Under the pieces are notes generated by a model. That model searched no databases. It was not told the origin of the DNA and saw nothing but the letters and a program-made list of their open reading frames with translations. From a virus: DNA of 30,342 nucleotides. Within the stretch, counting starts at the first letter, position 1; every line of letters starts with the position of its first letter. Of this stretch, positions 3,380 through 25,400 are shown in pieces. A program made the translations under genes and the position numbers. Where the stretch lies: the IMG/VR virus record IMGVR_UViG_3300031671_000006, positions 1 through 30,342 of that record, one strand, 5' to 3'.

Positions 3380-5193
3380 TGGAACAATACGCCTCTGCTG
3401 CCACGACCCTCCCTAACCTCGATCCCCGAGCGCGTAGTGCTGTGCGCAAAGCCACCGCTCGCGCTGAGCCAAAGTGGGATGGGCCGGATGTTGCGTTTCG
3501 CAAAGCGGCAGAGTCTCGGCTGATTGGGCTGCGCGTCAATCGCTTTTCATGGTGGACCCACTGGCGGGAACTGGCCGACTATATCCTCCCCCGCCGCTAT
3601 AAATGGCTCATAACCCCGAACCAAATGGCCCGTGGTTCGCCGATCAACCAACACATCCTTGACTCCGCTGGCACCCTCGCTGCCCGTAACCTCGCCGCCG
3701 GGATGATGATGGGTTGCTCGGACCCAACCAAGCGTTGGTTCAAGTACAAACTTGGCCATCTCGACTCCACAACCACCTCCCCAGTCTCCCTTTGGCTCGC
3801 GGAGGTCGAGCGGATCGTCGGCCTGATCCTCTCCGAGTCGAACTTCTACGACTCCCTCGCCATCTTCTACTTCGATCTCGTCGTCTTCGGCACCGCGGTC
3901 ATGCTGATCTACGAAGACTTCGACAACGTGATCCGCTGCTACAACCCTTGCCTCGGCGAATACTATGTCGATAACTCCGGCAGCTACCGCCCTGTTGTCT
4001 TCGCGCGCGAGTTCACCAATACCATCTCCCAAGCTGCGGACGAGTTCGGGGTTCAGAATCTCTCCCCTTCCTCCGCACGGCTTTGGGCTGAGGGCGGAAC
4101 CAGCCTCACCCGTGAACTGGTCGTGGCGCATATGGTGGAGCCAAATAAAGACGGAAGAAAGTTTGGTATTCCGGAAAGCTTCCCCTACCGCGAGTGCTAC
4201 TGGGAATGGGGAGGGTCCGCTTCTCCTCAAGGAGGCTCTTCCTATTCTCCTGGACTCCTTAGAAAAAGGGGCTTTCACGAGTCTCCTGCAATCATTTGCC
4301 GATGGGACCTCGTATCTAATGACGCTTACGGAAGATCGCCAGGGATGGATGCTCTTCCAGATATCAAACAACTTCAACTAGAGACGAAGCGGCTCTCGCA
4401 GGGGATTGACAAGATGGTCAACCCACCGATGATCGCTGACGTGCAGTTGAAGAACCAGCCAGCTTCGCTTCTCCCCGGCGGCGTTACTTACGTCCAAGGT
4501 ATCCTCTCCCAAGGCCGCACAGGCTTCGCCCCCGCCTATATGGTCAACCCCCAAGTCAATGAGATGATGCAGCAGATGCAGGAGGTTCGCCAGCGGGTGG
4601 GCGAGACCTTCTACAACAACCTCTTCCAAACCATCTCGCAGTACGAGACCCGCTCGGGCGTGACCGCGACGGAGATCGATGCGCGTAAAGCCGAAGCAAT
4701 GCTCATGCTTGGCCCTGTTCTCGAACGGCTAAACCACGAGGCCTTCGCCCCTCTCCACGATCGCGTCTTCGGTATTGCCTCTCGGGCGGGAGTCCTGCCC
4801 CGTGCCCCTCGCGAGGCCCAAGGCCAACACCTTCGCGTTGAGTTCTCCTCCATGATCGAAATCTCCCAGAACGCGAACAAGGCCAACTCCATTATCGAGA
4901 TCATGAACCTCGCTTCACAGTTCGCCGGTGTCGATCCGACGATGATCGACAACATCGACATGGACCGCTCCTTCGAGAAGATCGCGGCGCTTAAAGTTGG
5001 TGAGCCTGACTTGACCCGCTCCCCCGCTGCCCTCGCGGCAATCCGCCAGCAGCGCGCGCAGCAACAAGCACAGCAGGCGCAGGCGCAGCAGGCCGATATC
5101 GCCAACAAGCTCTCTGCTGGGGCGAAGAATCTCGCTGGTGCAAATCTCACTAGCGGCGGCAATCTATTAACCAAGTTGACTGGCCAAGCGTGA
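3379..5193 (+). CDS. Portal (head-tail connector) protein, T7 gp8-like
   Basis: A 604-residue protein of the podovirus head-to-tail connecting family, which forms the ring at one capsid vertex through which DNA is packaged and ejected. Typical segments are the N-terminal SWWTHWRELADYILPRR region, the LAAGMMMGCSDPTKRWFK block, and the long helical part ending in the TATEIDARKAEAMLMLGP segment that lines the channel side. The C-terminus (about residues 545-575) is a Gln/Ala repeat tract and probably flexible. It is translationally coupled to the 49-residue protein upstream, and its TGA overlaps the next start. Length is normal for the family. Confidence 0.93.
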   Translation: MEQYASAATTLPNLDPRARSAVRKATARAEPKWDGPDVAFRKAAESRLIGLRVNRFSWWTHWRELADYILPRRYKWLITPNQMARGSPINQHILDSAGTLAARNLAAGMMMGCSDPTKRWFKYKLGHLDSTTTSPVSLWLAEVERIVGLILSESNFYDSLAIFYFDLVVFGTAVMLIYEDFDNVIRCYNPCLGEYYVDNSGSYRPVVFAREFTNTISQAADEFGVQNLSPSSARLWAEGGTSLTRELVVAHMVEPNKDGRKFGIPESFPYRECYWEWGGSASPQGGSSYSPGLLRKRGFHESPAIICRWDLVSNDAYGRSPGMDALPDIKQLQLETKRLSQGIDKMVNPPMIADVQLKNQPASLLPGGVTYVQGILSQGRTGFAPAYMVNPQVNEMMQQMQEVRQRVGETFYNNLFQTISQYETRSGVTATEIDARKAEAMLMLGPVLERLNHEAFAPLHDRVFGIASRAGVLPRAPREAQGQHLRVEFSSMIEISQNANKANSIIEIMNLASQFAGVDPTMIDNIDMDRSFEKIAALKVGEPDLTRSPAALAAIRQQRAQQQAQQAQAQQADIANKLSAGAKNLAGANLTSGGNLLTKLTGQA

Positions 5194-5627
5194 TGGACAA
5201 TGCCTCAGACACCCGCCAAATCCGTGCCGCTCGAAAGGCCGCCAAAGCCCTCGAAGCAGAGCGCGCGACTGTCATCTTCACCCTTATGTCGTCTTCGGCG
5301 GGCCGCTCTTATGTCCACGACTGGCTTGTCCGGTCCCATGTATTCCAAACTTCGTTCTCTAACGATCCGTACCGAACCGCTTTTGCCGAGGGCGAGCGGA
5401 ACGCCGGTCTTCAACTCCTCACCGACGTGATGTCAAGCGCCCCAGACCAATACATCTCAATGATGCGTGAAGCTTCAGACAAGGAACAAGCAGATGGCCG
5501 AAGAAACACAGACAACGACCGACACGTCGGGGATAACGCGGATGCCGGACGGTCAGATAGTGGATGGCCAGACGACGAAGTCCGATCCGACTACGACGAG
5601 CGAGCAGACCTCAACGGAGGCAGGTGA
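5193..5627 (+). CDS. Bbp19-like phage protein
   Basis: About 144 residues. Residues 25-95 carry the pattern RSYVHDWL, then FAEGERNAGLQLL, then PDQYISMM, which matches the short conserved protein named Bbp19 in Bordetella phage BPP-1. It lies beside the portal in many podoviruses and its role is unproven. ATG 5193 shares a base with the portal stop; a GTG at 5190 is an alternative start. The last 45 residues are charged, low in hydrophobics, and read in a different frame over the start of the scaffold gene (5494-5627), so the tail may be a by-product of the overlap. The position suggests a head-assembly accessory. Confidence 0.75.
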   Translation: MDNASDTRQIRAARKAAKALEAERATVIFTLMSSSAGRSYVHDWLVRSHVFQTSFSNDPYRTAFAEGERNAGLQLLTDVMSSAPDQYISMMREASDKEQADGRRNTDNDRHVGDNADAGRSDSGWPDDEVRSDYDERADLNGGR

Positions 5628-6261
5628 TGCGGGCAAGACGCTCCTTAACCAGTCTGAGAACCCTCCCAAAGCTGAGGGCAAATCAGACACAGGGACCGAT
5701 GGGAAGGCTGCCGACAAATCCAAGGGCACTTCCGCCGCTCCCGAGAAATACGCCGACTATACTGTCCCCGAAGGATTCACCCTCGCGCCAGAAGTCAAGA
5801 CCCAGGCCGACACCCTCTTCAAAGACCTGAACCTCTCTCAAGAGCAAGGTCAGAAGACGATCGACCTCTACACCAAGCTGACTTCCGAAGCCGCGCAAGC
5901 CCCCTACAAAGCTTGGTCCGATATGACGGCGAAGTGGAAGACAGATGCAGAATCCCACCCCGACCTCCGAGGCAAGCTCGGCGCCGGGAAGGAAGTAAAC
6001 GTAAGGATCGGGGCGTTACTCAACTCCCTACCCGATCAACAACTGGCCTCGGACTTTCGCGAACTCATGGACATCACCGGAGCCGGGAACCATCCCGCGT
6101 TCATCCGGGCGATCGACCACTGGGCAAAGCAACTATCCGAAGGCACGCACGTCTCTGGCAAAGGGCCATCCCCCGGCGGTCAATCCGAACCGGGCAAGGC
6201 TTCTCCGTCTGCGGCTGCGGCCATCTGGCCTGGACTGAAGTCATCGAGCAATCCTCGATGA
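5494..6261 (+). CDS. Scaffold / capsid assembly protein
   Basis: A 255-residue protein just before the major capsid gene, the place of the scaffold in podoviruses. It has a long Thr/Ser/Asp/Gly-rich disordered N-terminus (about 1-85), then YADYTVPEGFTLAPEV and a helical core with LNLSQEQGQKTIDLYTKL. The conserved-looking end reads RELMDITGAGNHPAFIRAI followed by WAKQLSEG. Acidic, helical and partly disordered character suits a scaffold that is lost on maturation. The ATG at 5494 has AAGGAAC upstream; an in-frame start at 5467 is possible but lacks a good site. The first 134 bases are shared with the upstream gene in another frame. Some related proteins are annotated as peptidases, but I see no catalytic motif. 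Confidence 0.75.
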   Translation: MAEETQTTTDTSGITRMPDGQIVDGQTTKSDPTTTSEQTSTEAGDAGKTLLNQSENPPKAEGKSDTGTDGKAADKSKGTSAAPEKYADYTVPEGFTLAPEVKTQADTLFKDLNLSQEQGQKTIDLYTKLTSEAAQAPYKAWSDMTAKWKTDAESHPDLRGKLGAGKEVNVRIGALLNSLPDQQLASDFRELMDITGAGNHPAFIRAIDHWAKQLSEGTHVSGKGPSPGGQSEPGKASPSAAAAIWPGLKSSSNPR

Positions 6262-6262
6262 C
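6240..6262. promoter_or_regulatory. 9-bp perfect hairpin just before the capsid gene
   Basis: GTCATCGAG (6240-6248) pairs with CTCGATGAC (6254-6262) around the loop CAATC. The right arm contains the scaffold stop codon, and the hairpin ends 27 bp before the capsid ATG, just upstream of its AAAGGAGC ribosome binding site. No T-run follows. A 5' stabiliser or processing hairpin that favours capsid mRNA is the most natural reading. Confidence 0.5.
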
Positions 6263-6289
6263 GCAACCGCAACCTAAAGGAGCTTATTA

Positions 6290-7330
6290 ATGGCAACGAT
6301 TGGCAGTCAAGCACTGACGTACGCCGATTGGGCCCGTCGTATTGACGACGGGTATAAGGTTGCCCGGATCATCGAACTCCTCTCGCAGACCAATGAGGTC
6401 TTGGAGGATATGATGGTCGTTGAGGGCAATCTCCCAACCGGCCACAAGACCACCGTCCGCACTGGTCTTCCGCAAGCAACTTGGCGTTTGCTGAACCAAG
6501 GTGTCCCGAATGCGAAGTCGACGACCGCGCAGATTCAGGACACCTGCGGCAATCTCGAAACCTACTCCGTGATCGACAAGGACATCGCCGACCTCAACGG
6601 TAACACCCAAGAGTTCCGGTTGTCTGAAGTCCGGGCGTTCCTCGAAGGGATGTCGCAGCAGGTTGCCTCCACTCTAATCTACGGCAACCAGTTCATCAAC
6701 CCGGAACGCTTCACCGGCTGGGCGCCGCGGTACTCGACCTCAAGCACCGCCAACTCCCAGACCGCCAATAACGTCCTCTCCGGCGGCGGCACCGCCTCGA
6801 CCAACACCTCAATCTGGATTCACGTTTGGGGTGACGACACTGCCCACGCGACCTTCCCGAAGGGAAAGATCACCGGGCTCCAGCATCGGGATATGGGTGA
6901 GTGGCCTGTCTCCGACTCCTCTGGCAACACCTACCAAGCCTACCGAGACCACTTCAAGTGGGAAATCGGCTACGTCCTCCGCGATTGGCGGTATGTCGTC
7001 CGAATCGCGAACATCGACGTGACCCTCCTGACTGGTGTGAGCGCGGCGAACCTTATCAACCTGATCGTCCGCGCGATCTACCGCTTGCCCACGCAGCCGG
7101 TCTCCTCAGGCACCATCCAGACTTCCGATACTCCGGAAATCCGGGCGAACATGGGCCGGTCGGTGATCTACTGCAATCGTATCATTCGGACCTACCTCGA
7201 TCTCCAGGCGATGAACAAAACAAACGTCCTGCTTCGGATTGAGGAATTTGACGGGAAGCCTATCACTACCTTCCGCGGCATCCCTGTCCGAACCTGCGAC
7301 GCGATCCTTTCCAACGAAGTCAACATCTAA
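6290..7330 (+). CDS. Major capsid protein (BPP-1-like)
   Basis: A 346-residue coat protein of the HK97-fold group seen in Bordetella phage BPP-1 and many podoviruses. Family-like segments are ALTYADWARRIDDGYKVARI, then MMVVEGNLPTGHKTTVRTG and WRLLNQG, then QVASTLIYGN with the following P-domain region, and the C-terminal FDGKPITTFRGIPVRTCDAI. No prohead protease domain is fused and none is seen nearby. It has a strong ribosome binding site (AAAGGAGC) and a hairpin just upstream, consistent with high expression. It follows the scaffold and precedes the cement protein, the expected order. Confidence 0.92.
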   Translation: MATIGSQALTYADWARRIDDGYKVARIIELLSQTNEVLEDMMVVEGNLPTGHKTTVRTGLPQATWRLLNQGVPNAKSTTAQIQDTCGNLETYSVIDKDIADLNGNTQEFRLSEVRAFLEGMSQQVASTLIYGNQFINPERFTGWAPRYSTSSTANSQTANNVLSGGGTASTNTSIWIHVWGDDTAHATFPKGKITGLQHRDMGEWPVSDSSGNTYQAYRDHFKWEIGYVLRDWRYVVRIANIDVTLLTGVSAANLINLIVRAIYRLPTQPVSSGTIQTSDTPEIRANMGRSVIYCNRIIRTYLDLQAMNKTNVLLRIEEFDGKPITTFRGIPVRTCDAILSNEVNI

Positions 7331-7341
7331 GGAGAACCCAG

Positions 7342-7869
7342 ATGATCTTAGACAGTCTTCTCTTCTTCTCTGGGGCCTCGGGCAATACCGACACCCCGAC
7401 TACCGGCACTCAAACCGCCACCAACATCCTCGATCTCGGCGTCACCTCTGGCGTTCCGACTTCGGCGAATGGTGGTGGTGCTCGCGATATCGGGATCGGG
7501 GGCGATAATACCCTCGAACTCCTTGTTCAGGTGACGACCGCCTTCCTCAGCGGCACCTCTCTCCAAGCTCAGATGGCGGGAGCCCCTGACTCTGGCGCTG
7601 GTGTCCCCGGCTCCTACACGACAATGTGGACCGGCCCTGCCGTTCTTCTCACGAACCTTACCGCTGGCGCCTACCTTGCCAACGTCGATGTCCCACGCGT
7701 GATCCCAGGCCAAGTCCTCCCGCGCTTCCTTCGTCTCCAATACATCTCCGTCGGCACCTTCACTGCCGGGGCTGTGGAAGCAGGGATCGTCCTCGACCAG
7801 TTCCTCCAACCTGAAGGAACTGGCGGCGCACTCTCCGGCTATCCGGCCGGGGTCACTGTGTCGAATTGA
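7342..7869 (+). CDS. Capsid cement/decoration protein, Bbp16-like
   Basis: A 175-residue beta-rich protein immediately after the capsid gene. Features matching the Bbp16 cement protein of BPP-1 are the start MILDSLLFFSGA, the DIGIGGDNTLELLVQVTTAF segment, and the RFLRLQYISVGTFTAGAVEAGIV strand pair near the end. These proteins bind the outside of the shell and stabilise it after expansion. A strong TAAGGAGAA site lies 11 bp upstream of the ATG. Together with the capsid and Bbp19-like genes this gives the head a BPP-1 character. Confidence 0.85.
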   Translation: MILDSLLFFSGASGNTDTPTTGTQTATNILDLGVTSGVPTSANGGGARDIGIGGDNTLELLVQVTTAFLSGTSLQAQMAGAPDSGAGVPGSYTTMWTGPAVLLTNLTAGAYLANVDVPRVIPGQVLPRFLRLQYISVGTFTAGAVEAGIVLDQFLQPEGTGGALSGYPAGVTVSN

Positions 7870-8351
7870 TGCGAAGGTATCTCATAGCAGGGGCCATCCT
7901 AGCGCTGGCCCTTGCTGGTGGAGCGATAGCCCAACAGCTTACGTTCTACAACCTAACCGGCGCAGAGACATTCGTCGTCTCCATTGGTGGGATCGGGGGC
8001 CAAAGCACCTATGCTACCATCAATCAAGTCCGTAATTCCAGTGGCTACCAACTCGTCGCTACTGGAACAACTGTTGCCTCAGCCCCTACCAACGCGGTTG
8101 GGAATCTGATCGCTACTGGCGCCATCACCACTTGGAACGTAACCCTACCGAACCCCGCGTTCGATGGGGAAGTGTTCTCGGTTGTGAATGGTACTGGTTC
8201 TTCTTTCTCCAGCAATACCACCGTCACTACCACCACCACTCCACAAAACCAGACCTTGGCCCAGACTTACTCTTCCCAAACCTTGTCTGCTGGGGCGAGT
8301 GCAGAATGGCAGTTTGACTACGCCACCTTAACATGGTATCGGAGGAGGTAA
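7869..8351 (+). CDS. Sec-exported beta-rich protein (160 aa)
   Basis: It starts at the ATG overlapping the cement gene stop (7867-7869). Residues 1-21 form a classical signal peptide: basic MRR, a hydrophobic core, and AIA|Q cleavage. The mature part (about 139 aa) is Thr/Ser/Asn/Gly rich with alternating hydrophobics, including a poly-Thr stretch near residues 117-122, and ends in WQFDYATLTWYRRR. It resembles a single beta-sandwich module of the sort found in fibre-like proteins. No cysteine and no lipobox are seen, so it should be a soluble periplasmic or secreted protein. The function is unknown. It is the first of six such exported proteins. Confidence 0.8.
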   Translation: MRRYLIAGAILALALAGGAIAQQLTFYNLTGAETFVVSIGGIGGQSTYATINQVRNSSGYQLVATGTTVASAPTNAVGNLIATGAITTWNVTLPNPAFDGEVFSVVNGTGSSFSSNTTVTTTTTPQNQTLAQTYSSQTLSAGASAEWQFDYATLTWYRRR

Positions 8352-8357
8352 CAGAAC

Positions 8358-8804
8358 ATGCGCAGAATCCTTCTTCCCTTTGTTGCTATTCTCGCCTTCG
8401 GCATGACTATCGCCGGGGCGCAGAATCTTACCCAGTCACTCCAAGGCTCGCAAGACCCGCGCGGCCCTGTGCCTATGGACTCCAACAACAACATCTTCCT
8501 TCCCTACCACCTCGACTCAGTGGGCCAATCTACCCCACCAACCATAACCGCTGGTGGTCTAGGTGGAGCGCCGACCTTCGTAGGCACAGCCACTGATCTG
8601 GCGGGGGTGGTATCTATTCCATCCTTGACAACGACCCTTATCGTCACCTTTGGCCAAGCCTTCGCCAACGCCCCTTCCTGCATCCTGCAAGAACTTGCTG
8701 GCACTACCGCTCCGACCTTCACCGTCACCAACACCGGCATCAATGCCACCGTTGTGGCAGCGTCTAAAAGTTACAACTACATCTGCCTCGGAGCGAATTA
8801 CTAA
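8358..8804 (+). CDS. Sec-exported protein with fibre-tip-like domain (148 aa)
   Basis: A GGAGGT site precedes the ATG. The signal peptide is residues 1-21 (MRR, hydrophobic core, AGA|Q). The mature protein has a Gly/Pro-rich stretch, then a domain from about residue 72 (GTATDLAGVVSIPSL, then VTFGQAFANAPSCIL, ending in YNYICLGANY). This pattern of short strands with a central P-x-C is typical of small C-terminal domains in phage fibre-like proteins. The two cysteines (in PSCIL and YICLG) could pair in the periplasm. It is joined to the O-antigen polymerase-like gene by a one-base overlap (TAATG). Function unknown. Confidence 0.8.
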   Translation: MRRILLPFVAILAFGMTIAGAQNLTQSLQGSQDPRGPVPMDSNNNIFLPYHLDSVGQSTPPTITAGGLGGAPTFVGTATDLAGVVSIPSLTTTLIVTFGQAFANAPSCILQELAGTTAPTFTVTNTGINATVVAASKSYNYICLGANY

Positions 8805-9940
8805 TGTTCCTCCTCGGACTAGCCTTACCGCTAGTCTACATCCCAGCTGTGACAGGGTTTATGATCCTGTCCGGTTGGATTCTCTTATCCTGCGTGTTAC
8901 CGTTTGTCCTAACGTGTAGGATTGAGATGGGCTGGGCTCATTGGTTGGGCCTGGCCTTTCTCGCCTATGCCTCCATCTCACTCCTATGGACGCCAGTGCT
9001 TGTGCAGGGAGTGTGGAAGCTCTGGCTGCTTTGGATACTTGCGTTCAGCTTCTGCGTTAGTGCGGCTGGGTATCGGCTCGATCGGCTGCTCCTTGGTGCA
9101 GCGATGGGGCTCGGCGTGAACCTCGCCGTTGCCCTTGCGCAGGCCTTCGGCTGGCACTTCCTTCCACAAACCTCTGGCGCCCCGTCGGGGTTATTTGTAA
9201 ATGCCAATCCATTCGGTGAAGTAGCGGCACTCACCTCAATTGGACTTCTCACCACACGGCAATTCTGGCCCCTCACCCTCACCCTCCCTTGCATCTGGCT
9301 CTCCGATTCCCGCACTGCCCTCCTCGCGCTTGGGGTAGCGGGCGGAGTGTGGCTTTGGGACAAGCTGCGTTGGCGCGGTCTCGTTCTCGCCCTTGCCTTA
9401 GTCCTTCCTCTCGGCGCGATTGGTTGGTGGCATAAGCCATCGACTTCCTCTCTTTTAGAGCGTGAAGCAATCTGGCTTGACACGGTCGATGGGCTTTCCC
9501 CCTTCGGCCGTGGCGCCGGTTCATTCCTTACCCTCTACCCACACTTCGCCACGCGCACAGACACGATGGCGACCCGCCCAGAGAGCGCGCACAATGACTT
9601 TCTTGAGCTTATTTTCGAGTTCGGTATCGGGGCCATACCGCTCTTCGGGCTGGTGGCGATTGCCCTCTTCACGCACGGCCCGTGGCGCTATCTCTGGTGG
9701 GCCTTCTGCGCCGTTGCCTTGGTGGCTTTCCCAACAGCTATACCTGTCGAGGGGTTTCTGGGCATGGTTGCGCTGGGGGCTCTTTGCCGGGGTTGGCGTG
9801 TGGCTTGGATTGAGCGGACTCGTCTCCGACCAGCTATCTGGCCATGGGCGGGTGGTAGAAGCAGCTCAGCTATTCCCCTGGAACCGCTTCATCCGCACAG
9901 CGCTGGGCTACTCCGCGATCCTTCATGGAGGGTCAGTTGA
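8804..9940 (+). CDS. O-antigen polymerase/ligase-like membrane protein (Wzy/WaaL superfamily), reading frame breaks near 9777
   Basis: A polytopic inner-membrane protein with roughly nine to ten hydrophobic segments. Two features mark the Wzy_C family of O-antigen polymerases and ligases: a conserved Arg in SDSRTALLALG (R170), and the large periplasmic loop with a hydrophobic exit ESAHNDFLELIFEFGIGA (H263), where ligases have an essential His. These enzymes join lipid-linked sugar units or transfer them to lipid A-core. After about residue 325 the annotated frame turns into an unlikely charged, Pro-rich tail. The +1 frame instead continues the hydrophobic helix and a TPR-like end (see 9780-10112). 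A natural full length would be about 435 aa. Phage-encoded Wzy proteins are known to alter host O-antigen in temperate phages; finding one between head and fibre genes is unusual. Confidence 0.8.
   Translation: MFLLGLALPLVYIPAVTGFMILSGWILLSCVLPFVLTCRIEMGWAHWLGLAFLAYASISLLWTPVLVQGVWKLWLLWILAFSFCVSAAGYRLDRLLLGAAMGLGVNLAVALAQAFGWHFLPQTSGAPSGLFVNANPFGEVAALTSIGLLTTRQFWPLTLTLPCIWLSDSRTALLALGVAGGVWLWDKLRWRGLVLALALVLPLGAIGWWHKPSTSSLLEREAIWLDTVDGLSPFGRGAGSFLTLYPHFATRTDTMATRPESAHNDFLELIFEFGIGAIPLFGLVAIALFTHGPWRYLWWAFCAVALVAFPTAIPVEGFLGMVALGALCRGWRVAWIERTRLRPAIWPWAGGRSSSAIPLEPLHPHSAGLLRDPSWRVS
9775..9779 (+). other. G5 run at apparent +1 frameshift
   Basis: Five consecutive G residues sit exactly where the Wzy/WaaL-like coding signal moves from one frame to the next (+1). 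Dropping one G would restore a single ORF ending at 10112. It could be a programmed shift, a phase-variable tract, a true inactivating insertion or an assembly error. The sequence alone does not decide between them. Confidence 0.6.
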
Positions 9941-10112
9941 AGCTGTTGCCAAAGCACTACAGACCGATCCTTGGTCCGCCGATCTCACCTATGGTGCATG
10001 GGCACTCTACGCTGCTCATGGGAATAAGGCCTCCGCCGAGAAGTTCGCTAAGCGTTTTGTTGAAATCGCCCCGCGCTCAAAGATAGCGCTGGCTTGGAAG
10101 AAAGGAAAGTAA
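9780..10112 (+). CDS. C-terminal continuation of the O-antigen polymerase/ligase-like protein (+1 frame)
   Basis: Read in the +1 frame, this stretch gives LFAGVGVWLGLSGLV, which completes the membrane helix begun at GMVALG in the upstream frame. It is followed by a soluble helical tail (VEAAQLFPWNRFIRTALGYS, then AVAKALQTDPWSADLTYG, ending IAPRSKIALAWKKGK). That tail resembles the TPR-like repeats found after the Wzy_C domain in some family members. It ends one base before the ATG at 10114, in keeping with the tight packing of this genome, whereas the unshifted frame leaves a 173-base gap. No good independent start exists; a GTG at 9798 is the nearest candidate. It is probably the tail of one gene rather than a separate gene. 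Confidence 0.65.
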   Translation, partial: LFAGVGVWLGLSGLVSDQLSGHGRVVEAAQLFPWNRFIRTALGYSAILHGGSVEAVAKALQTDPWSADLTYGAWALYAAHGNKASAEKFAKRFVEIAPRSKIALAWKKGK

Positions 10113-10113
10113 C

Positions 10114-10653
10114 ATGGCCCGATGGAAACTTACCGATGCTCACTACCTCCGAGTGCTTGGAATGAAGTGGGAGTACCAAGAGATCGACCGCCGCACTGGC
10201 CGCCCAAAGCGGACGCAGTTTGAGGTTCCGCTTTACATCAATCCAAAGTACGAGGACGACCTGAAGGCTTTTGGCCAGGGCGACCCGGACCCGGAGTTCT
10301 GCGATATCATCGTCTCCGATGGCAACAATCCGCAGCCGAAGGATGTCATCTTCATCGGCGATCCCACTCCATGCATGACTCCGCTCGACGATGAGGCGAA
10401 GGAAATCTCAGCGCGGCTTGAGAAGAGTTGGAACGCGCCGGAGGTTGAGGGGCTCAGCTATGGCCAACGCCTCGAACTCGGCTTCATCAATCAGATGGCC
10501 GAACTCAAGGACAAGGTACAGCAAGCTCCACAAATTGCTGGTCTTGAACAACTGATGGCCTCGATGACTGCAATGATGCAGCAGCAGACAGAGATTCTGG
10601 CGCGGATGGTTGTGCCAGAATCGAAGGCAGTTGGTGGGAGGCGGCTCACATGA
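10114..10653 (+). CDS. Conserved-looking phage hypothetical protein (179 aa)
   Basis: A cytoplasmic-type protein without signal peptide or membrane segment, preceded by an AAAGGAAAG site. The N-terminal 100 residues are compact and mixed (WKLTDAHYLRVLGMKWEYQE, then FEVPLYINPKYEDDL, then DVIFIGDPTPCMTPLDDEA). The C-terminal part is helical and Gln/Met rich (QLMASMTAMMQQQTEIL). It sits between the membrane enzyme and another exported protein, overlapping the latter (ATGA). I do not recognise the family. The shape is that of a structural or assembly accessory with a coiled-coil end. Confidence 0.75.
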   Translation: MARWKLTDAHYLRVLGMKWEYQEIDRRTGRPKRTQFEVPLYINPKYEDDLKAFGQGDPDPEFCDIIVSDGNNPQPKDVIFIGDPTPCMTPLDDEAKEISARLEKSWNAPEVEGLSYGQRLELGFINQMAELKDKVQQAPQIAGLEQLMASMTAMMQQQTEILARMVVPESKAVGGRRLT

Positions 10654-11069
10654 GAAGGCTAACTCTCTCCCTTGCTTTATTACTTAGTTTCGCAGCCCAA
10701 GCCCTCGCACAGCAGGGCCCAATGGGTCCGATCCCAACTACTCAGGCAACTGTTGCACTACCAGCTTCTACTCAGGCCCAGACTAAACTAATCGCCGGTA
10801 TTGCTGGGAAGTCCACCTACATCACCAGCTGGCATATCGTCCCGGCTTCTGGAGCCGTGGTGACTTGGTCATCTGGGACTGGCACAAACTGCGGAACAGG
10901 TACCACTATATTGGATGGCCCTGATACCTACGGCACTGGCATTACCCTCCAACCCGATGGTTATGGTGTCGGGGCTGGTGCTATTCTCGTCGCTCCACAG
11001 AGCGCTGATGTTTGCTTAACAGTTGGTACTGCTCGGATCGCTGGATCGGTTGGGTATGGGCAGTTCTAA
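10650..11069 (+). CDS. Sec-exported beta-rich protein (139 aa)
   Basis: The ATG overlaps the upstream stop (ATGA). A signal peptide occupies residues 1-20 (MRRL, Leu-rich core, ALA|Q). The mature 119 residues are Gly/Thr/Ala rich with two cysteines about 60 residues apart (TNCGTG and DVCLTV). The pattern KSTYITSWHIVPASGAVVTW looks like a beta-sandwich of the kind used in phage appendage proteins. The signal peptide and cysteine pair fit periplasmic folding. It is coupled to the next gene by TAATG. Function unknown. Confidence 0.78.
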   Translation: MRRLTLSLALLLSFAAQALAQQGPMGPIPTTQATVALPASTQAQTKLIAGIAGKSTYITSWHIVPASGAVVTWSSGTGTNCGTGTTILDGPDTYGTGITLQPDGYGVGAGAILVAPQSADVCLTVGTARIAGSVGYGQF

Positions 11070-11500
11070 TGTCTTCGCAAACTGACTTGGATCAAGGTGG
11101 CACTTCTCGCCAGTTGGTTCGGACCTATATGGGCCCGAGTGTTGGGTGGGTTATGCTCCCTGGTCTGAACCCTATTGCTCGGATCACTGCTGCTGGGACC
11201 TATACTCTTACTCCGGATGTTACGTTGGTCGAAGTCGCTGTGGCAGGGGCGGTAACGATCATACTCCCAACGGCACTTTATCCTACTGTCCCAGCGGTGA
11301 CACAGGGGGCACTCTACGCAAAGAAGCCTGTCACCGTCGTTGACATCGGTGGCTTCGCCGCAGCTAACCCAATCATTATCAAGCCTGCTTCTAACGCAGA
11401 GAACATCCTTGGCCTCACGCAAGTATCGATCACCGCGAACTACGGAGGCTTGACCTTGAACCCGAGCAATGAGCAGAAGGGATGGACGAATCCGCAATGA
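11069..11500 (+). CDS. Beta-rich phage appendage-like protein (143 aa)
   Basis: The start at 11069 (TAATG overlap with the upstream stop) is preferred over an in-frame ATG at 11012, because the added residues would overlap a coding region and look random. The protein is beta-rich without a signal peptide: it starts MSSQTDLDQGG, then GPSVGWVMLPGLNPIARI, a TYTLTPDVTLVEVAVAGAV hairpin, then KKPVTVVDIGGFAAANPIII and an ending with GGLTLNPSNEQKGWT. Such domains recur in podovirus tail appendage regions, often near fibres. It is the one member of this cluster without export signals. It overlaps the fibre gene start (ATGA). Confidence 0.7.
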   Translation: MSSQTDLDQGGTSRQLVRTYMGPSVGWVMLPGLNPIARITAAGTYTLTPDVTLVEVAVAGAVTIILPTALYPTVPAVTQGALYAKKPVTVVDIGGFAAANPIIIKPASNAENILGLTQVSITANYGGLTLNPSNEQKGWTNPQ

Positions 11501-13590
11501 AACAAATAACCTTAGCTGTTGCTTTATTCATATCATTGTTTGCTACCCTTAACAGTGCGGCGGCACAATGCAATGGCAACTTCGGCGCCGATTCCGCTTG
11601 TGGAACTGTAGGCGGAGGCTTACCTGGGCCTATTCCGTTTTCGTCAATTATTTCAGGCAGCGGAGCAGTTATTGGCTCCGGTACCTCCACCATCGGCTGC
11701 GCCGCGCCATGGGCCAATACGACTGGAACACTGTTGGGGAATAACTGCGCATTTTCGATCAGCGGTACGACTATCACGGTTCCGACTGGCGGCTATTTGT
11801 TGAAGTTTAATGGACTGAGCGCAATCCAGTTTGGTGCCGATAGCAACGGAGCTTTTTTGCTCGGCGACGAGACGGCCAATTTAGTCGAAATCGGACCAGC
11901 GCCAAACGTCACGAATGTTCCCACTAATCTTTTGATACAGCCGCCCTCCGACGCTGGCACCTTTATCGTTTTCAACGGCACCGACACAAGTGCGCAAAGT
12001 CAGTTGATTATTGGAAATAAGGGCACCGGCACATCGCCAGGCAATTGGGTAATCGGTGAAACAACTGGAACGGGTGGTCAGTGTTATCCGCTCGATTTTG
12101 CCAATGATGTTCCAACCATCGCATTTACGATGACCTGCGATCCGCATTTGCAGATCAAAAACAACATTGGGATTTACGGACGAAACGCTGCGAATAGCGC
12201 CGACATTCTAATGATGAATCTCGACGCCTCCAACATCTTGCAGATCGGCGCCAGCGGGGATGCCTCGATTTCACTTAATAAAGCAACCAGTCTCGGCAGT
12301 CTTTTGACGCTAACGGGCACCGAGGGCAATCAACTTGAATGGACACTCGGCGGCCAAAGCTGGAAAGTCAGCATGGCATCTGGCGGCAACTGGTATTTGC
12401 TCGACGCCACGAACAGTAAATTTCCGATCAATGTTGGGTTAAACACGCCCGTTGTTCTTAATGTCGGCAACTCGGTAGCGGGCGCGCTGGCGCTGGCTGG
12501 CAATTTTGTTCCTACCGTCACTTATACCGATGCTTTGGGCAGTAGTTCTCTCGGCTGGACTGGGATTTATCTTGCGGGTTCTAGCTCTGGCGTTGGCGAA
12601 GTGGTCGCGCCTTCGGCCGCATCGACCTACACATGGACGCTCCCGGCAGCGACGGACACGATTGCCGGCATAGCGGCGGCGCAAATACTGACCAACAAGA
12701 CGCTTGCGTCATCCACTGATTTGCTTGGTGGCGTAACCGCCGACTTTGGCTCGGATGCCAAGGGCGATGTTTACACAAACAGCGGGTCTAGCAATGTCAT
12801 TGAAAGACTTGCTATTGGCTCGACTAACGATTGCCTGATCGTCACCAGCGGCCTGCCTGCTTGGAGTTCGGCTGCTTGTTTGATTAGCGGCGGTGCGCTC
12901 GGCACACCGTCATCTGGCACCGTGACGAACCTCACTGGTACGGCCTCGATCAACATTAACGGTACCGTTGGCGCAACGACGCCAACGACGGGAGTATTCA
13001 CAACGGTCGGGGTCGGCATCACTCCCGTTGCTACCGTTCCATTGCAGTTCAAGGTCGGAACAAATCTTGACGCGGCCTTTGTCAAAAGTTCCAGTTCAAC
13101 CCAGGTTGAATTGGCAACTGTCAATGACGCGGACACTGTGCTTGAGCCGTTTCTCATTAACGCTTCGACGCTAACGATAGCGGCACCTCTTTACTTGACT
13201 GGCTTAACTTCCGGCTCCGGTTCTGCCGCGCTTTGTTTGAATGCGACGGGATCGCAAGTCGAGAGCGATACAAGCAGCACAATCTGCGGCATCAGCGCGC
13301 TTCGTTACAAAAATCTAATCGCAGAGATAACGCCAGATCAGGGCGTCGCTGGAATTATGGGGCTGCGCGGGGAGTCCTACACTTACAAATCCGACGCTCC
13401 TGGCCACGCCAATGATAAAAATATTCACATCAGCCTAATTGCTGATGACATGGCCGCAATGAATCACGCCTGCGCGGAGTATAGCGACGCTGGTGTGGAA
13501 AACTATATGGATAGATGTTTTGAGGCGTACCAAGTTGCTTTCGATAAGAAGGTGTGGGAGCTTCTGAAACAATTGAAACAACCGCACTGA
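11497..13590 (+). CDS. Tail-fibre-like protein with Sec signal peptide and S74-type C-terminal chaperone
   Basis: A 697-residue protein, start ATG 11497 (ATGA overlap); an in-frame ATG at 11482 would hide the signal peptide behind five residues. Residues 1-23 form a signal peptide (AAA|Q24), followed by a Cys-containing N-terminus. The body is a Thr/Ser/Gly-rich beta fibre with common fibre phrases (ALGTPSSGTVTNLTGTA, GATTPTTGVFTTVG). The last ~98 residues look like the S74 intramolecular chaperone: S600-x-x-R603-x-K605 matches the Ser/Lys dyad that cuts just before the Ser, followed by GLRGESYTYKS, HISLIADDMAAM and a helical end. The codon choice (more TTG, AAT, TTT) differs from its neighbours and suggests recent acquisition. 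A fibre with an export signal is odd, because virions assemble in the cytoplasm. Confidence 0.82.
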   Translation: MKQITLAVALFISLFATLNSAAAQCNGNFGADSACGTVGGGLPGPIPFSSIISGSGAVIGSGTSTIGCAAPWANTTGTLLGNNCAFSISGTTITVPTGGYLLKFNGLSAIQFGADSNGAFLLGDETANLVEIGPAPNVTNVPTNLLIQPPSDAGTFIVFNGTDTSAQSQLIIGNKGTGTSPGNWVIGETTGTGGQCYPLDFANDVPTIAFTMTCDPHLQIKNNIGIYGRNAANSADILMMNLDASNILQIGASGDASISLNKATSLGSLLTLTGTEGNQLEWTLGGQSWKVSMASGGNWYLLDATNSKFPINVGLNTPVVLNVGNSVAGALALAGNFVPTVTYTDALGSSSLGWTGIYLAGSSSGVGEVVAPSAASTYTWTLPAATDTIAGIAAAQILTNKTLASSTDLLGGVTADFGSDAKGDVYTNSGSSNVIERLAIGSTNDCLIVTSGLPAWSSAACLISGGALGTPSSGTVTNLTGTASININGTVGATTPTTGVFTTVGVGITPVATVPLQFKVGTNLDAAFVKSSSSTQVELATVNDADTVLEPFLINASTLTIAAPLYLTGLTSGSGSAALCLNATGSQVESDTSSTICGISALRYKNLIAEITPDQGVAGIMGLRGESYTYKSDAPGHANDKNIHISLIADDMAAMNHACAEYSDAGVENYMDRCFEAYQVAFDKKVWELLKQLKQPH

Positions 13591-13611
13591 CACTCGAACA
13601 GGGAACATAAA

Positions 13612-13839
13612 ATGAGAGTAGCTATCGTTGTCGCCGCACTGTTGGGTTTGGCTGGCACTGCACAAGCGCAGCAGCAAGTCACGCCGTCGCAAATGGCGTT
13701 GCAAATCGACAATGCCGTGAACGGGCTGGCGCAGTCGGTCGAGGCGTTGCAGGCGCAAGTCAAACAGCGCGACGCCAAGATCAAAGAGCTTGAGGACAAA
13801 TACGAGCCGAAGAAGAAGCCCAATGCCGAGCAAAAGTAA
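13612..13839 (+). CDS. Exported short coiled-coil protein (75 aa)
   Basis: A signal peptide covers residues 1-19 (MRVAIVVAALLGLAGTAQA|Q). The mature 56 residues are a predicted coiled coil: heptad-like hydrophobics in MALQIDNAVNGLAQSVEALQ, then a charged AQVKQRDAKIKELEDKY and a Lys-rich end. There is no lipobox cysteine. It follows the exported fibre-like gene after 21 bases and shares its different base usage, so the two may have moved together. It could be a periplasmic partner or trimerisation helper of the fibre-like protein; an o-spanin is less likely without a lipobox. Function unknown. Confidence 0.7.
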   Translation: MRVAIVVAALLGLAGTAQAQQQVTPSQMALQIDNAVNGLAQSVEALQAQVKQRDAKIKELEDKYEPKKKPNAEQK

Positions 13840-20298: not shown

Positions 20299-22434
20299 TT
20301 GGCACAAGTACCATACACCCCCTATCCGACTGTTATTCCACAGGACATCCCCACTCCTCGGCTGGCGGTTAACACTCCTCCAGATGCATTCGGGGTTAAT
20401 ATCGGCCATGCCTTGCAGGGGCTTGGGTCGAGCGTCGGCCAAGTTGGGAACGAACTCTTCTCGCGTGCTATCGCGCTACAAGACCTTCAGAACGAGACGA
20501 CTGCGCGCGAGGCTGATGCGAATTACATGATGCAAGTGGGTGATCTTCACGCGAAGTTCTCCTCGCTAGAGGGGAAGGATGCGGTTAATGCCTATCCGAA
20601 GTACACCGCGGATATCGAGAACCTCCGCAAGCAGACCCGCGACTCCCTCCCAACTGCAATGGCGCAGAAGCTCTTCGACTCTACCTCGATGTCAACGATG
20701 TCAAGGACGATCTTCAATGGCGCGGGGCATGCGGCGGCAGAGCAGAAGGGGTGGGCGGTCGGGGCGAGTAAGGCCCGCGTGGCGGGGTTCAATGACCAAG
20801 CCTTGATCGACCCAAGCGACGAGCGGAACTTCAACAACCAACTCGAAGCTGGAGATGAGGAGGTTCGGCAACAAGGCGCCGCAAAGGGTGAGAGCGACGA
20901 CCAGATCAACTACAACATCTCCAAGAACCACTCCTCAATGTGGATGAATCGGATTGAAGGAACCGCGAGGACAAATCCATTCGGCGCGCAGAAAATGCTC
21001 GATGATGCGATCGCGAACGGGGATGTTCGTGGAGAGGACCTTGAGAAAGTCCAGCGCATCGTCCGCCAGCAAGTCTATACCACCGGCGCTAGAAACATCT
21101 CCGCTGATATTCGATCTGGCCGCGACACCTCGTTGGGTGATAAGGCAGTACCTATGCCTGCTGCAAAGGCTGCTATTGCTGGGAATGAGAGCGGGGGAGA
21201 TTACAATGCAATCGGCCCAGCGACAAAGGGTGGAGATCGCGCATTGGGCAAGTACCAAGTCATGCAGAGCAATCTTCCAGAGTTCCTTTCGCAGGCTGGC
21301 CTGCCTTCGATGACGTCGAAGGAGTTCCTTGGAGATCAGGCTGCGCAGGAGAAAGTCTTCGAGACGGTCTTCGGCGGGTACATGGAGAAGTACGGTAGCT
21401 TCAACGAAGCCGCGAGCATGTGGTTCTCTGGGAAGTCAGTGAAGGATGCTGGAACAGCGAGTGATGGGCATTGGACAGTACCACAATACCTTGCTAATGC
21501 CAATGCCACTTTGGCAAAGAACACTCCGCTCGCCGATTTAGCTACTATCGCAGAGAGCAAGGCCGATGTCTACTCCCGTAACGATCCTCTCGCTGGAGAC
21601 TACGCGCGCGACCGGATGATCTCAGATGTGAATAAGCAGAAGGCGATCAAGCGAGATCAAGACTACACGAATATGAACACAGTGGATAGCGCGATCCTCA
21701 CTGGAGGGCAGGGTGGGAAGTTGCCGACTTCGATCGAGGAACTAAAGGCAGTCTCACCAGATGTCGCCACCGCTTGGGGGCAGCTTGATGCCCAGCACCA
21801 GAAGCGCGTCCTTACTGCGATCGTGCAGAACGCGAAGGGTGATCATGCTTGGACGCAGGATTCCATGCGGGACTATCAGCAGCTGAAAGGCCAGGCATAC
21901 GACGACCCCGCCAGCTTCCTTGATGAGGATATCATAACCGGCCACGCGAACCTGCCAAACCGGACGAAGGTGGAGCTTATCAACCTCCAAGCAAAGCTCA
22001 AGTCCAACTCCGAGGCCGACCCCCGCGTAACCCGTGCACTCTCTACCCTCGCGCCGGAATTGAATGCAGCTGGGATCACCAAGACCGGGAGCAAGGACAC
22101 CTACTACCAGTTCATCGGCTCTCTTCAAGATGCGCTGCAAGACTTCGCTACCGAGCATAAGCGCTCACCGAAGATGAATGAGGTTCAGGAGATCGGCAAC
22201 TCTCTCCTCGCTGAGCAACACCATCATTGGTGGCAGACTAGCCAGCCATTCTTCTCCCGCCCTGTCCCGCAGGAAGACGCTGATCAGATTCACGCAGACT
22301 TCTCTGCGAAGTATTCTGGCATCACTCCGACGGATGAGCAGGTCCAGCGCATCTACGCGGCGGATCAGTATAAGAAGTTGTATGGCGGGTCCGCGAAGAA
22401 GGAGACAGATGTGCCAGAGGTACCGCAACGCTGA
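20299..22434 (+). CDS. Internal virion protein with lytic transglycosylase domain
   Basis: About 711 residues. The start is a TTG at 20299: a GAGGA lies 5-6 bases upstream, and the protein then begins MAQVPYTPYPTVIPQ; an in-frame TTG at 20287 has no proper site. A long helical N-terminal half (about 1-280) precedes an SLT-type lytic transglycosylase domain at about 290-380: catalytic Glu in AGNESGGDYNAIG (E297), then ALGKYQVM and EAASMWFSG. It would cut peptidoglycan to let the genome cross the periplasm. In T7 the transglycosylase is at the N-terminus of the largest core protein gp16; here it sits inside the smaller, gp15-position protein. The stop overlaps the next ATG. Confidence 0.85.
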   Translation: MAQVPYTPYPTVIPQDIPTPRLAVNTPPDAFGVNIGHALQGLGSSVGQVGNELFSRAIALQDLQNETTAREADANYMMQVGDLHAKFSSLEGKDAVNAYPKYTADIENLRKQTRDSLPTAMAQKLFDSTSMSTMSRTIFNGAGHAAAEQKGWAVGASKARVAGFNDQALIDPSDERNFNNQLEAGDEEVRQQGAAKGESDDQINYNISKNHSSMWMNRIEGTARTNPFGAQKMLDDAIANGDVRGEDLEKVQRIVRQQVYTTGARNISADIRSGRDTSLGDKAVPMPAAKAAIAGNESGGDYNAIGPATKGGDRALGKYQVMQSNLPEFLSQAGLPSMTSKEFLGDQAAQEKVFETVFGGYMEKYGSFNEAASMWFSGKSVKDAGTASDGHWTVPQYLANANATLAKNTPLADLATIAESKADVYSRNDPLAGDYARDRMISDVNKQKAIKRDQDYTNMNTVDSAILTGGQGGKLPTSIEELKAVSPDVATAWGQLDAQHQKRVLTAIVQNAKGDHAWTQDSMRDYQQLKGQAYDDPASFLDEDIITGHANLPNRTKVELINLQAKLKSNSEADPRVTRALSTLAPELNAAGITKTGSKDTYYQFIGSLQDALQDFATEHKRSPKMNEVQEIGNSLLAEQHHHWWQTSQPFFSRPVPQEDADQIHADFSAKYSGITPTDEQVQRIYAADQYKKLYGGSAKKETDVPEVPQR

Positions 22435-25400
22435 TGGGCCAATACTCCGATACCATAGAGAACATCTTCGGCCCGGCTCGGCAGGCTGCACAAACAGCAG
22501 TAGTCTCAGACAGCGATGCTGAGCCGGATAATGCTGGTCGAGCGATGGAGATTTCGCAGGCGACAGGGGTGCCGCCTAGCGTTGTCTACTCCTCGCTCGA
22601 CCAGTTTGATGTGCAGCACAAGCAGAAGCTCGCGAGCGATATCGTACAAGGGAACCCTCACCTTGTCGATTACGTCAACTCCTCTCCGATGGCAGCGAAG
22701 GTCAGCAATGACGATTGGGGAACGCTGGATTCGATCTCGCAGAAGCTTGCGCCATTTGCGCGGGGGGCGAAGGCAGTTATGCAAGCTGCGGTGGAGGGGT
22801 TCAAGCAGTACCACGGGGAAAGTGTTGGTCTGCCGCAGGAGGAGCTTGATAAGGTAAAGAACCTGACCAATGCTTCTCCGCAGATGGTCAGCCTGCTCAA
22901 CCGAATCCTTCTCCACACCCCCCTTGGCCAATCTTACGAAGCGCAGAACATCCTCCAAGGAATGGCCGGAGCACTCTCTACCGGAGCAGGAGAACTCGGG
23001 CGGCAGCTTGGGTACCCTAACGCACCGGACTTCGCAGAGAAGGCATTGCAAGCCGCGTTTGATCCAGGCCTTGCTGCGTCACTAGGCCCTGTTGGAGAAG
23101 CGCTGGGTCCAGTTGATATTGCAATGCACAATAAGATGCTGAAAGGGGCGGTGAAAGCGATCACCGATTCGGCGGGGAAGGTCGAACCGTATGTGGCGAA
23201 TGGGAGAGTGCCGCCGGTCGGACTTGATGAGCTAACCGACCAAGCCCACGCCGAGCAGGCGAAGTTGGATGGGAAGAATCTTCAAGACCTCTTCTCAGAA
23301 GTGCAGCAGTCCACGACGAAAGAGCGCGCGCCAGAGATGCTTGCGCAGTTCATTGGGCAGCATACAGATGCGCATATCGGAGTCGATCTGGAGGGGATCG
23401 ATAAGCTCTTTGGCGAGGACTACGCACCGAAGCCGGGTGATAATAAGCTCGGCTGGGTTCCTGAGATCGCAGAGCAGATGGACCTTGCGCGGGCTGGCGG
23501 TGGGGATGTGAATATCCCGTTGGTGGATTGGTTAGTGAAGGCCGATCCGGAGGTGGCGAAGGAGCTTCACGACTTCATCAGGGTTCGGCCGGAGGGGATG
23601 ACGATTGATGAGGGGAAGGGGGCTGGGCCGAAGGTGATGGCGGCGGAGGAGCCTAAGTTAGAAGGAGAGGAAGCCGCCCTTCCCTCTCCAATTGATAGTA
23701 TCCGCGCCGCTGCCAAGCTCTCCATTCCAGAAGCTGTTGATGAAGGTATCGTCCCCTCTAGCACTATCCAAGGCGAAGTCACCGACCAAGGTATTACCGC
23801 CCCTGCCATCCACGCCTTCTCCGCCAAAGATGCGATGGCGATGGTGGATAAGGACCGCCTCTCCGGTGTCCCCCGTGCTCTTGCAGAGCTCTTCGGCGAT
23901 CGCCTCCCACGTCTTGCTGGTGACACGGGCATTCACGTTGTCTCTGGGGAAGATATGCGGAAGTTGAATGTAGCAAACGAGATCGACCCCGAAGCCCCCG
24001 CATACTATAACCCAAATACTAACCAAATCATCATGCGCGAAGATATTGCAAATGGTGACTTTGGGCACAATGCTTCGGCACACGTACTGATCCACGAGAC
24101 TGCTCACGCTGCGACAAGCGACGCACTCTACCGCTACCCGCAGTTGAAGGGCTTCGTCACATCAATGATATCGGAGACTAGTGGCTACCTAAATCAGGTC
24201 GATAAAGCTTCTCGCCTTCTCCATAACTACGCTTTCAAGAACGAAGATGAGTTCATCGCGGAGGCCTTCTCAAATCCGAGGTTCCAAGAAGTCCTCTCCA
24301 CCACCCCTATTTCAAAGGAACTCGCGAGGCGCCTTGCGCTAGATAAGCCTTCGCCGTCAGTCTGGGACGCGGTTAAGAACATTGTAAAGGACCTCATCGA
24401 GCAACTCACTGGCGTTAGGATGCCAGATACGATGATGGATGGAGTGCTTAGGCTCGGGGAGGTCTTTGAGAAGATCAAGGGGGATGAGGTAGCGAAGGAA
24501 AGAAGGGCGGCAAAGGGCGCGGAGCCTATCGACCAGTCCATCTTCACTCGCGCCACTGCTCTCGGGATGAACAAGGCCCGGCTTCAGCGGTATATGGAAT
24601 TGATTGCGAAGCAGCGGGAGGAGGACGCGGCTTACCACGCGGGGGTAGCTGAGAAGTCCGAGCGTGAGAGGCAGACGAAAGAATGGAAGGAGAATGAAGC
24701 TGCGGTACGAAAGGAAGCTACCGAGGCCGTCCGCTCCCGCCCTGATATCGCAGCTGATCGCCTACTTCGCGAAGGAGAACTCTACGGCGAGAAAGTTCGC
24801 AAGCCCCGCTTGCGTGAAGATGCATTAACTCCCGAACAGGCCGCGGTCCTACCAGAGGAGTTCCTCGGCAAGAAAGGGATGCACCCAGACGATCTCGCAG
24901 GGCTCTTCGGCTATCATAGCGGCCATACTCTCGTTGACTCCCTCGCGAAGGTGCAAGAGGAACGCGGGCTTGAGGGCCTAACCCCCGCTGCGCACTTCTC
25001 TAAACTCGTCGACGCTGAGACTGAGCGGCGGATGAAGCGGCAGTATGGGAACCTTGAAGACAACATCTTGGAGGGGGCGAAGGACCACGTCATCTCCCAG
25101 ACGCAGATTGACATAATCGCACAGGAAGTTTACGCTCTCGCGGAGAAGAACAAAGCCTCCCTCCCTATCTCTCCAGATAATATGAAGTCTTGGGTGAAGG
25201 AACAGTTCAATGGCACGTCAGTGGGGGCTCACTCAACGGACAAGTACCTCGCACAAGCCGGGCGCGCGGGAGCGGACGCGGAAGAGGCGCTGTTGGAAGA
25301 GCGGCCGAGCGATGCTCTTAAGGCTAAGCAACAGCAGCATGTTGCCATGCTTCTTGCGAACGAGGCTAAGAAACTGGAGAAGGAGAAGGGTAGCTTTGGG

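Follow-up and report, generated by a model that had tools for sequence, protein, structure and literature searches.

Genomic setting of the wzy locus

The window, meaning the whole 30,342-base stretch of DNA analysed here, derives from a soil virus of bacteria (IMG/VR record IMGVR_UViG_3300031671_000006). A longer record (G001, 43,945 bases) apparently belongs to the same virus and, because it is identical to the window over 17 kb, does not count as an independent witness. From 6290 to 13590 all genes lie on the same strand and overlap or almost touch one another, the sole larger gap, on the wzy side of this operon, being taken up by a second reading frame. Terminase, portal, protease, GP7-type capsid and Bbp16 genes precede wzy, and genes for a fibre-like S74 protein, tail proteins and internal virion proteins follow it (Table 1). 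Gene order and heuristic signal peptides thus agree with the earlier note, which had placed wzy between head genes and tail-fibre genes, in an operon of otherwise structural or exported members. Signal peptides, called by a simple home-made rule, are predicted at the starts of 7866-8351, 8358-8804, 10650-11069 and 11497-13590. The last base of the gene directly upstream of wzy is the first base of wzy itself, and a homologue of its 148-residue product adjoins wzy in most relatives with a GP7 capsid. The PF13884 match of the fibre-like protein falls just under the cutoff (21.6 bits vs 22).

Further weak or unnamed matches were noted in the window. A 75-residue protein of the same operon (13612-13839) weakly resembles Rz-like spanins (E 0.006), an open reading frame 5′ of the terminase gene (408-812) has a weak endonuclease match, and an 1810-residue protein (22434-27866) matches phrog_9880, a family with no assigned function, its position suggesting an ejected internal protein.

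Table 1. Positions in the window of the genes, codons and signals discussed in the text
Feature	Position	Strand	Basis
Major capsid protein, GP7 family (epsilon15/BPP-1 type)	6290..7330	+	PF20911 E 9e-132; phrog_212
Bbp16-like cement protein, upstream border of cargo slot	7342..7869	+	PF21190 E 3e-7
161-aa exported protein of cargo slot	7866..8351	+	Synteny, heuristic signal peptide
148-aa exported protein directly 5′ of wzy	8358..8804	+	Synteny, heuristic signal peptide
wzy, WaaL/Wzy-family integral membrane protein, 378 aa	8804..9940	+	PF04932, AF2 model, Foldseek, alignment
wzy R170	9311-9313	+	Alignment
wzy R220	9461-9463	+	Alignment
Weak Shine-Dalgarno-like AGAGAG ahead of nested ATG (most relatives: GGAG)	9580..9585	+	Inspection
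wzy H263-N264-D265	9590-9598	+	Alignment
Putative nested ATG, within His-Asn-Asp codons	9594-9596	+	Sequence inspection
Probable nested overlapping gene, +1 relative to wzy, 172 aa	9594..10112	+	Conservation, selection, stop depletion
Selection handover from wzy frame to +1 frame	9768..9840	+	End of TM12; pair comparisons, conservation z
Conserved "MARW" protein, next gene after nested gene	10114..10653	+	Synteny
Fibre-like protein, Peptidase_S74 end and signal peptide	11482..13590	+	PF13884 E 2.7e-4

Family, fold and conserved residues of the wzy product

The wzy product, in which a simple scan finds about eight hydrophobic segments, matches the Wzy_C family (PF04932) at E 5e-10, with 39.8 bits against a curated cutoff of 31.7. 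Its AlphaFold (AF2) model reaches a pLDDT of 84.4 and a pTM of 0.82, with confidence dropping after residue 346, and a Foldseek comparison with the PDB returned the O-antigen ligase WaaL (7tpg; E 5.4e-5, probability 1.00) as the only match with E<=0.001. FtsW came next in that list at E 0.1, as expected for such a fold class. The likeness to WaaL concerns the predicted fold and the Wzy_C domain, at a TM-score of only 0.47-0.49 and an identity of 18%. A search of BFVD structures gave nothing at E<=0.001, a sequence profile run against PDB sequences gave no real match and did not retrieve WaaL, and an NCBIfam search supplied no family name for the protein.

Scans with the protein and then with alignments yielded 26 further viral loci, and a later scan eight more. 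In an alignment of the window protein with 24 diverged viral sequences (24-47% identical to it), R220, W224 and N264 are invariant, H263 and D265 are more than 90% conserved, and R170 is present in most members; residues beyond about 330 are not conserved. In phage D3 Wzy-beta, Arg and His residues in corresponding loops are essential (PMC4815439). The identification of a Wzy/WaaL-type polytopic protein, originally made by eye with R170 in SDSRTALL and H263 in what proves to be SAHNDFLEL, is hence borne out by profile, fold and active-site residues, both residues lying where the earlier note had put them.

The predicted fold is common to WaaL ligases, Wzy polymerases and protein O-oligosaccharyltransferases (O-OTases), which are indistinguishable at this level. 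A PglL/TfpO-like O-OTase glycosylating the phage's own exported Ser/Thr-rich and fibre-like proteins would account for the Wzy_C domain, which O-OTases share, and for the embedding of wzy among exported-protein genes. Among the 25 family members, however, 21 match PF04932 at E<=0.01 and none matches a PglL-specific or any other Pfam family at that threshold, and the exported neighbours also occur in many phages without wzy, so that we regard an O-OTase as improbable. We favour a WaaL/Wzy-type membrane glycosyltransferase, either a ligase or an inverting polymerase of the predicted GT-C_B fold.

Distribution of wzy and the cargo slot

A gene order recurs among relatives with the same capsid: portal, capsid, Bbp16, exported proteins, wzy, the "MARW" gene and tail genes. 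Homologues of wzy occupy this slot in about ten related lineages (synteny in L005, L048, L062, L071, L093, L094, L100, L101, L106, L108 and L114), so that it is not a dead insertion, one of the outcomes that the earlier note had named as fatal to its proposal. Only 4 of about 41 relatives in a capsid-fetched sample carry wzy; since most have the slot without it, the gene is not essential. Structural blocks of other phages harbour homologues too, placed between portal and capsid genes in L091 (phrog_334), beside phrog_212 in L103 and beside phrog_9953 in L111, so wzy is recurrent cargo and not a single accident. By the same simple rule, signal peptides are found in 90 of 153 slot genes and in 9 of 303 upstream genes.

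The slot itself (7866-13839 in the window; Bbp16 to MARW in relatives) ranges in size from about 0.2 to 9 kb and is dominated by predicted exported proteins, some of which are fibre-like with signal peptides despite their location in the virion block. L106 carries two Wzy_C homologues in tandem (5117-7020), the first being of the type without a C-terminal tail and having YND in place of HND. Inspection by eye found HNH-endonuclease-like open reading frames near or beside the wzy slot in L005 (8988-9833), L112 (5566-6000) and L095 (7166-7585), which are possible movers of slot cargo.

Lysogenic conversion and known phage Wzy_C proteins

Several observations speak for a role in lysogenic (serotype) conversion, of the kind known from epsilon15, D3 and VarioGold. 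Epsilon15, a temperate phage of the same capsid family, encodes a Wzy_C-type polytopic protein annotated as an O-antigen ligase family protein (NP_848229.2), next to a gene for a small transmembrane (TM) inhibitor of the host polymerase; D3 Wzy-beta and VarioGold VG_p25 are likewise phage-encoded Wzy_C proteins (PMC4815439 and PMC9658991, respectively); and one record with a wzy homologue (G442, carrying L103) has an integrase. However, epsilon15 keeps its gene apart, in a conversion locus that follows the tailspike and lies on the opposite strand, whereas wzy of the window sits in the same-strand head-tail block. The epsilon15 protein shows weak similarity only to the window family (profile score 16 bits), and the +1 frame of its gene is full of stops, with no nested gene. 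The D3 gene belongs to a serotype-conversion unit, and VG_p25 to a moron-like cluster that is oriented against the late genes; the excerpts consulted mention no nested +1 gene for either.

Tyrosine integrase (PF00589) is absent from 17 of 18 long records, because of which classical prophage serotype conversion is unlikely, and a tblastn search of 50,697 cultured-phage records found no relative. The remark in the earlier note that this is not the usual kind of lysogenic-conversion locus therefore probably holds, and the reading of wzy as structural-operon cargo is retained. A scan of genome contigs gave two distant matches, one to a Wzy encoded on an alphaproteobacterial chromosome and the other to a Wzy_C protein of Flavobacterium (L117). 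Capsids 39-54% identical to that of the window occur in alphaproteobacterial prophages in six of 385 genomes, and in the five that were checked the capsid gene has no neighbour matching Wzy_C. A profile of the +1 tail described below gave a single false match in alphaproteobacteria, to a SurA/PpiD-like protein.

A conserved second reading frame

The region 8804-10112, previously taken as one O-antigen polymerase/ligase gene needing frame correction, comprises wzy (8804-9940) and a conserved +1 frame that ends at 10112. Wherever a C-terminal tail is present it lies in the +1 frame, in 21 of 21 such loci and in all five fetched later, 26 in total. It consists of one TM segment followed by a helix of the pattern (A/G)xx(L/V)FPxxxxxR and, in some members, by tetratricopeptide repeats (TPR); in the L103 homologue TPR_19 is matched above the cutoff (E 6e-8). 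The product in the window has a Ser/Pro-rich N-terminus, one TM segment (~9768-9830), the helix LFPWNRFIR and a TPR-like end, and a read-through model of the two frames folds this end as TPR at high pLDDT. One tail alignment that misplaced short tails was left out of folding.

Selection passes from one frame to the other at the end of TM12, where a Gly (9776-9778) is invariant. Between L104 and L105, the eight base changes from the HND motif to the end of TM12 cause no amino-acid change in wzy and eight in the +1 frame, and past TM12, 11 base changes cause nine in wzy and two in the +1 frame (P 0.0012); L100 and L101 show the same pattern (P 0.003). Compared per column with synonymous shuffles, conservation of the +1 frame past TM12 reaches z values of up to 11 and already stands at 4.3 two codons ahead of the invariant Gly. 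The second frame is thus conserved as a protein and under purifying selection. A frameshift introduced by sequencing or assembly, or a pseudogene in decay, is what the out-of-frame C-terminus suggests when the window contig is viewed alone, but 26 diverged loci from many metagenomes share the +1 arrangement with purifying selection in both frames, which rules this explanation out for practical purposes. The stop of the +1 frame overlaps or abuts the start of the next gene in about half of the loci, which the wzy stop rarely does; in the tail-less L107, an ATGA overlap is found at the wzy stop itself.

Expression of the second frame

A programmed +1 (or -2) frameshift near the end of TM12 would join both parts into a single Wzy_C-TM-TPR protein. 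Such a layout exists in the Flavobacterium protein L117, which has TM12, a linker, a further TM segment and a repeat-like helical C-terminus in one frame; the selection switch is abrupt, at the invariant Gly, and the read-through model folds confidently except at the joint. At that joint, however, no linker separates TM12 from the next TM segment, the model giving a single 31-residue helix with a pLDDT of about 50, and in the aligned DNA of 21 loci neither a conserved slippery site nor a conserved stop is seen at the switch. Moreover, the +1 frame is open up to 60 codons upstream and has an ATG there in most lineages, neither of which a frameshift would need. We therefore view frameshifting as a weaker and rather unlikely rival, and read the second frame as a probable nested overlapping gene that is started internally.

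Stops in the +1 frame are under-represented starting about 60 codons ahead of the switch, at the HND motif, with no depletion further upstream or in the +2 frame. From the HND motif to the end of TM12, tail-bearing loci have 10 stops where about 35 are expected and tail-less ones 11 against 12.6; these are pooled counts, used because the zero count of the open class (class I) is circular, the class being defined by openness. In most tail-bearing loci the HND codons, CAC-AAT-GAC, hold an ATG in the +1 frame, and most loci with this ATG have GGAG about 10 bases 5′ of it. Of the 13 tail loci open from HND, 11 encode the motif Asn by AAT, compared with 1 of the 12 remaining loci (Fisher 2e-4), an association that weakened but held when new loci were added (14 of 17 vs 3 of 15, P 0.001); the open and closed classes were drawn after the data had been seen, and the compared sequences are related. 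AAT is the minority Asn codon elsewhere in the family (41 vs 87), and tail-less homologues mostly have AAC at the motif. Exceptions, with AAC, are L097 and L113 (tail loci open from HND) and the newly added L167.

Several loci closed from HND instead carry an ATG where TM12 ends, within Gly-His (or Gly-Tyr) codons. We consequently favour internal initiation, at one or the other of two sites, over frameshifting, on the sequence evidence of +1 openness and ATG at HND, ATG at the end of TM12, and the lack of a conserved slippery site. TTG or GTG at the end of TM12 was rejected as a universal start, its position not being conserved and start enrichment being marginal (P 0.04-0.07). The N-terminal 60 residues of the nested frame show no sequence conservation and could, for this reason, be untranslated. 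L159 has AAT and GGAG at HND, yet its +1 frame stops after 65 residues without a TM segment or tail; its nested gene is possibly decaying.

Proposed function of the gene pair

We propose that wzy is old cargo, although optional, of the exported-protein slot in the structural operon of podoviruses that are probably virulent. Its product would act late in infection, a timing suggested by gene order, in the inner membrane on the host's own lipid-linked glycan, and so alter the polysaccharide at the surface of the infected cell. Superinfection exclusion, or blocked adsorption of sister phage to debris, both suggested in the earlier note, may be effects of such a change. The host glycan is the likely donor, since a search of the window recognised no further glycan gene. 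Ribosomes would start internally on the wzy mRNA, in most lineages at the ATG formed by the His-Asn-Asp codons of the active-site motif, and thereby produce a protein that spans the membrane once and has an outer helix or TPR domain. This protein is likely to be a partner of the enzyme or to regulate it. To this account as a whole, a slot-borne Wzy_C enzyme altering host glycan together with an internally started nested +1 gene, we assign a probability of roughly 0.55.

One possibility is that the nested protein is an analogue of the epsilon15 polymerase inhibitor, the small membrane protein paired there with the Wzy_C protein. Alternatively, it may be a detached C-terminal subunit of a Wzy_C protein, an idea that follows from the similar part that the Flavobacterium protein carries in one frame, after a linker, where the phages have a separate +1 gene. 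A bolder proposal, which we hold to be a long shot, is a phage-run late glycosylation device, in which Wzy_C would move host lipid-linked glycan to the co-encoded exported fibre-like proteins or LPS and the nested TM-TPR protein would be a dedicated substrate-recruiting or regulating subunit. In its architecture, the pair resembles the Rz/Rz1 spanins, nested lysis genes of which one lies within the other's frame and both encode envelope proteins, with unrelated proteins and function.

Implications

O-antigen polymerase genes of phages are familiar from temperate phages, as morons or conversion genes. Here a diverged Wzy_C family is tied to the structural operons of environmental podoviruses that mostly lack an integrase, and its function would be to remodel the glycan on the host surface late in infection. 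The second gene is hidden, in that gene callers would miss it or take it for a frameshift error. Should the nested protein prove to be a partner of the enzyme, the pair would offer a compact route to learn how WaaL/Wzy enzymes are controlled. A start codon lying within catalytic codons would be a clear, testable case of dual coding.
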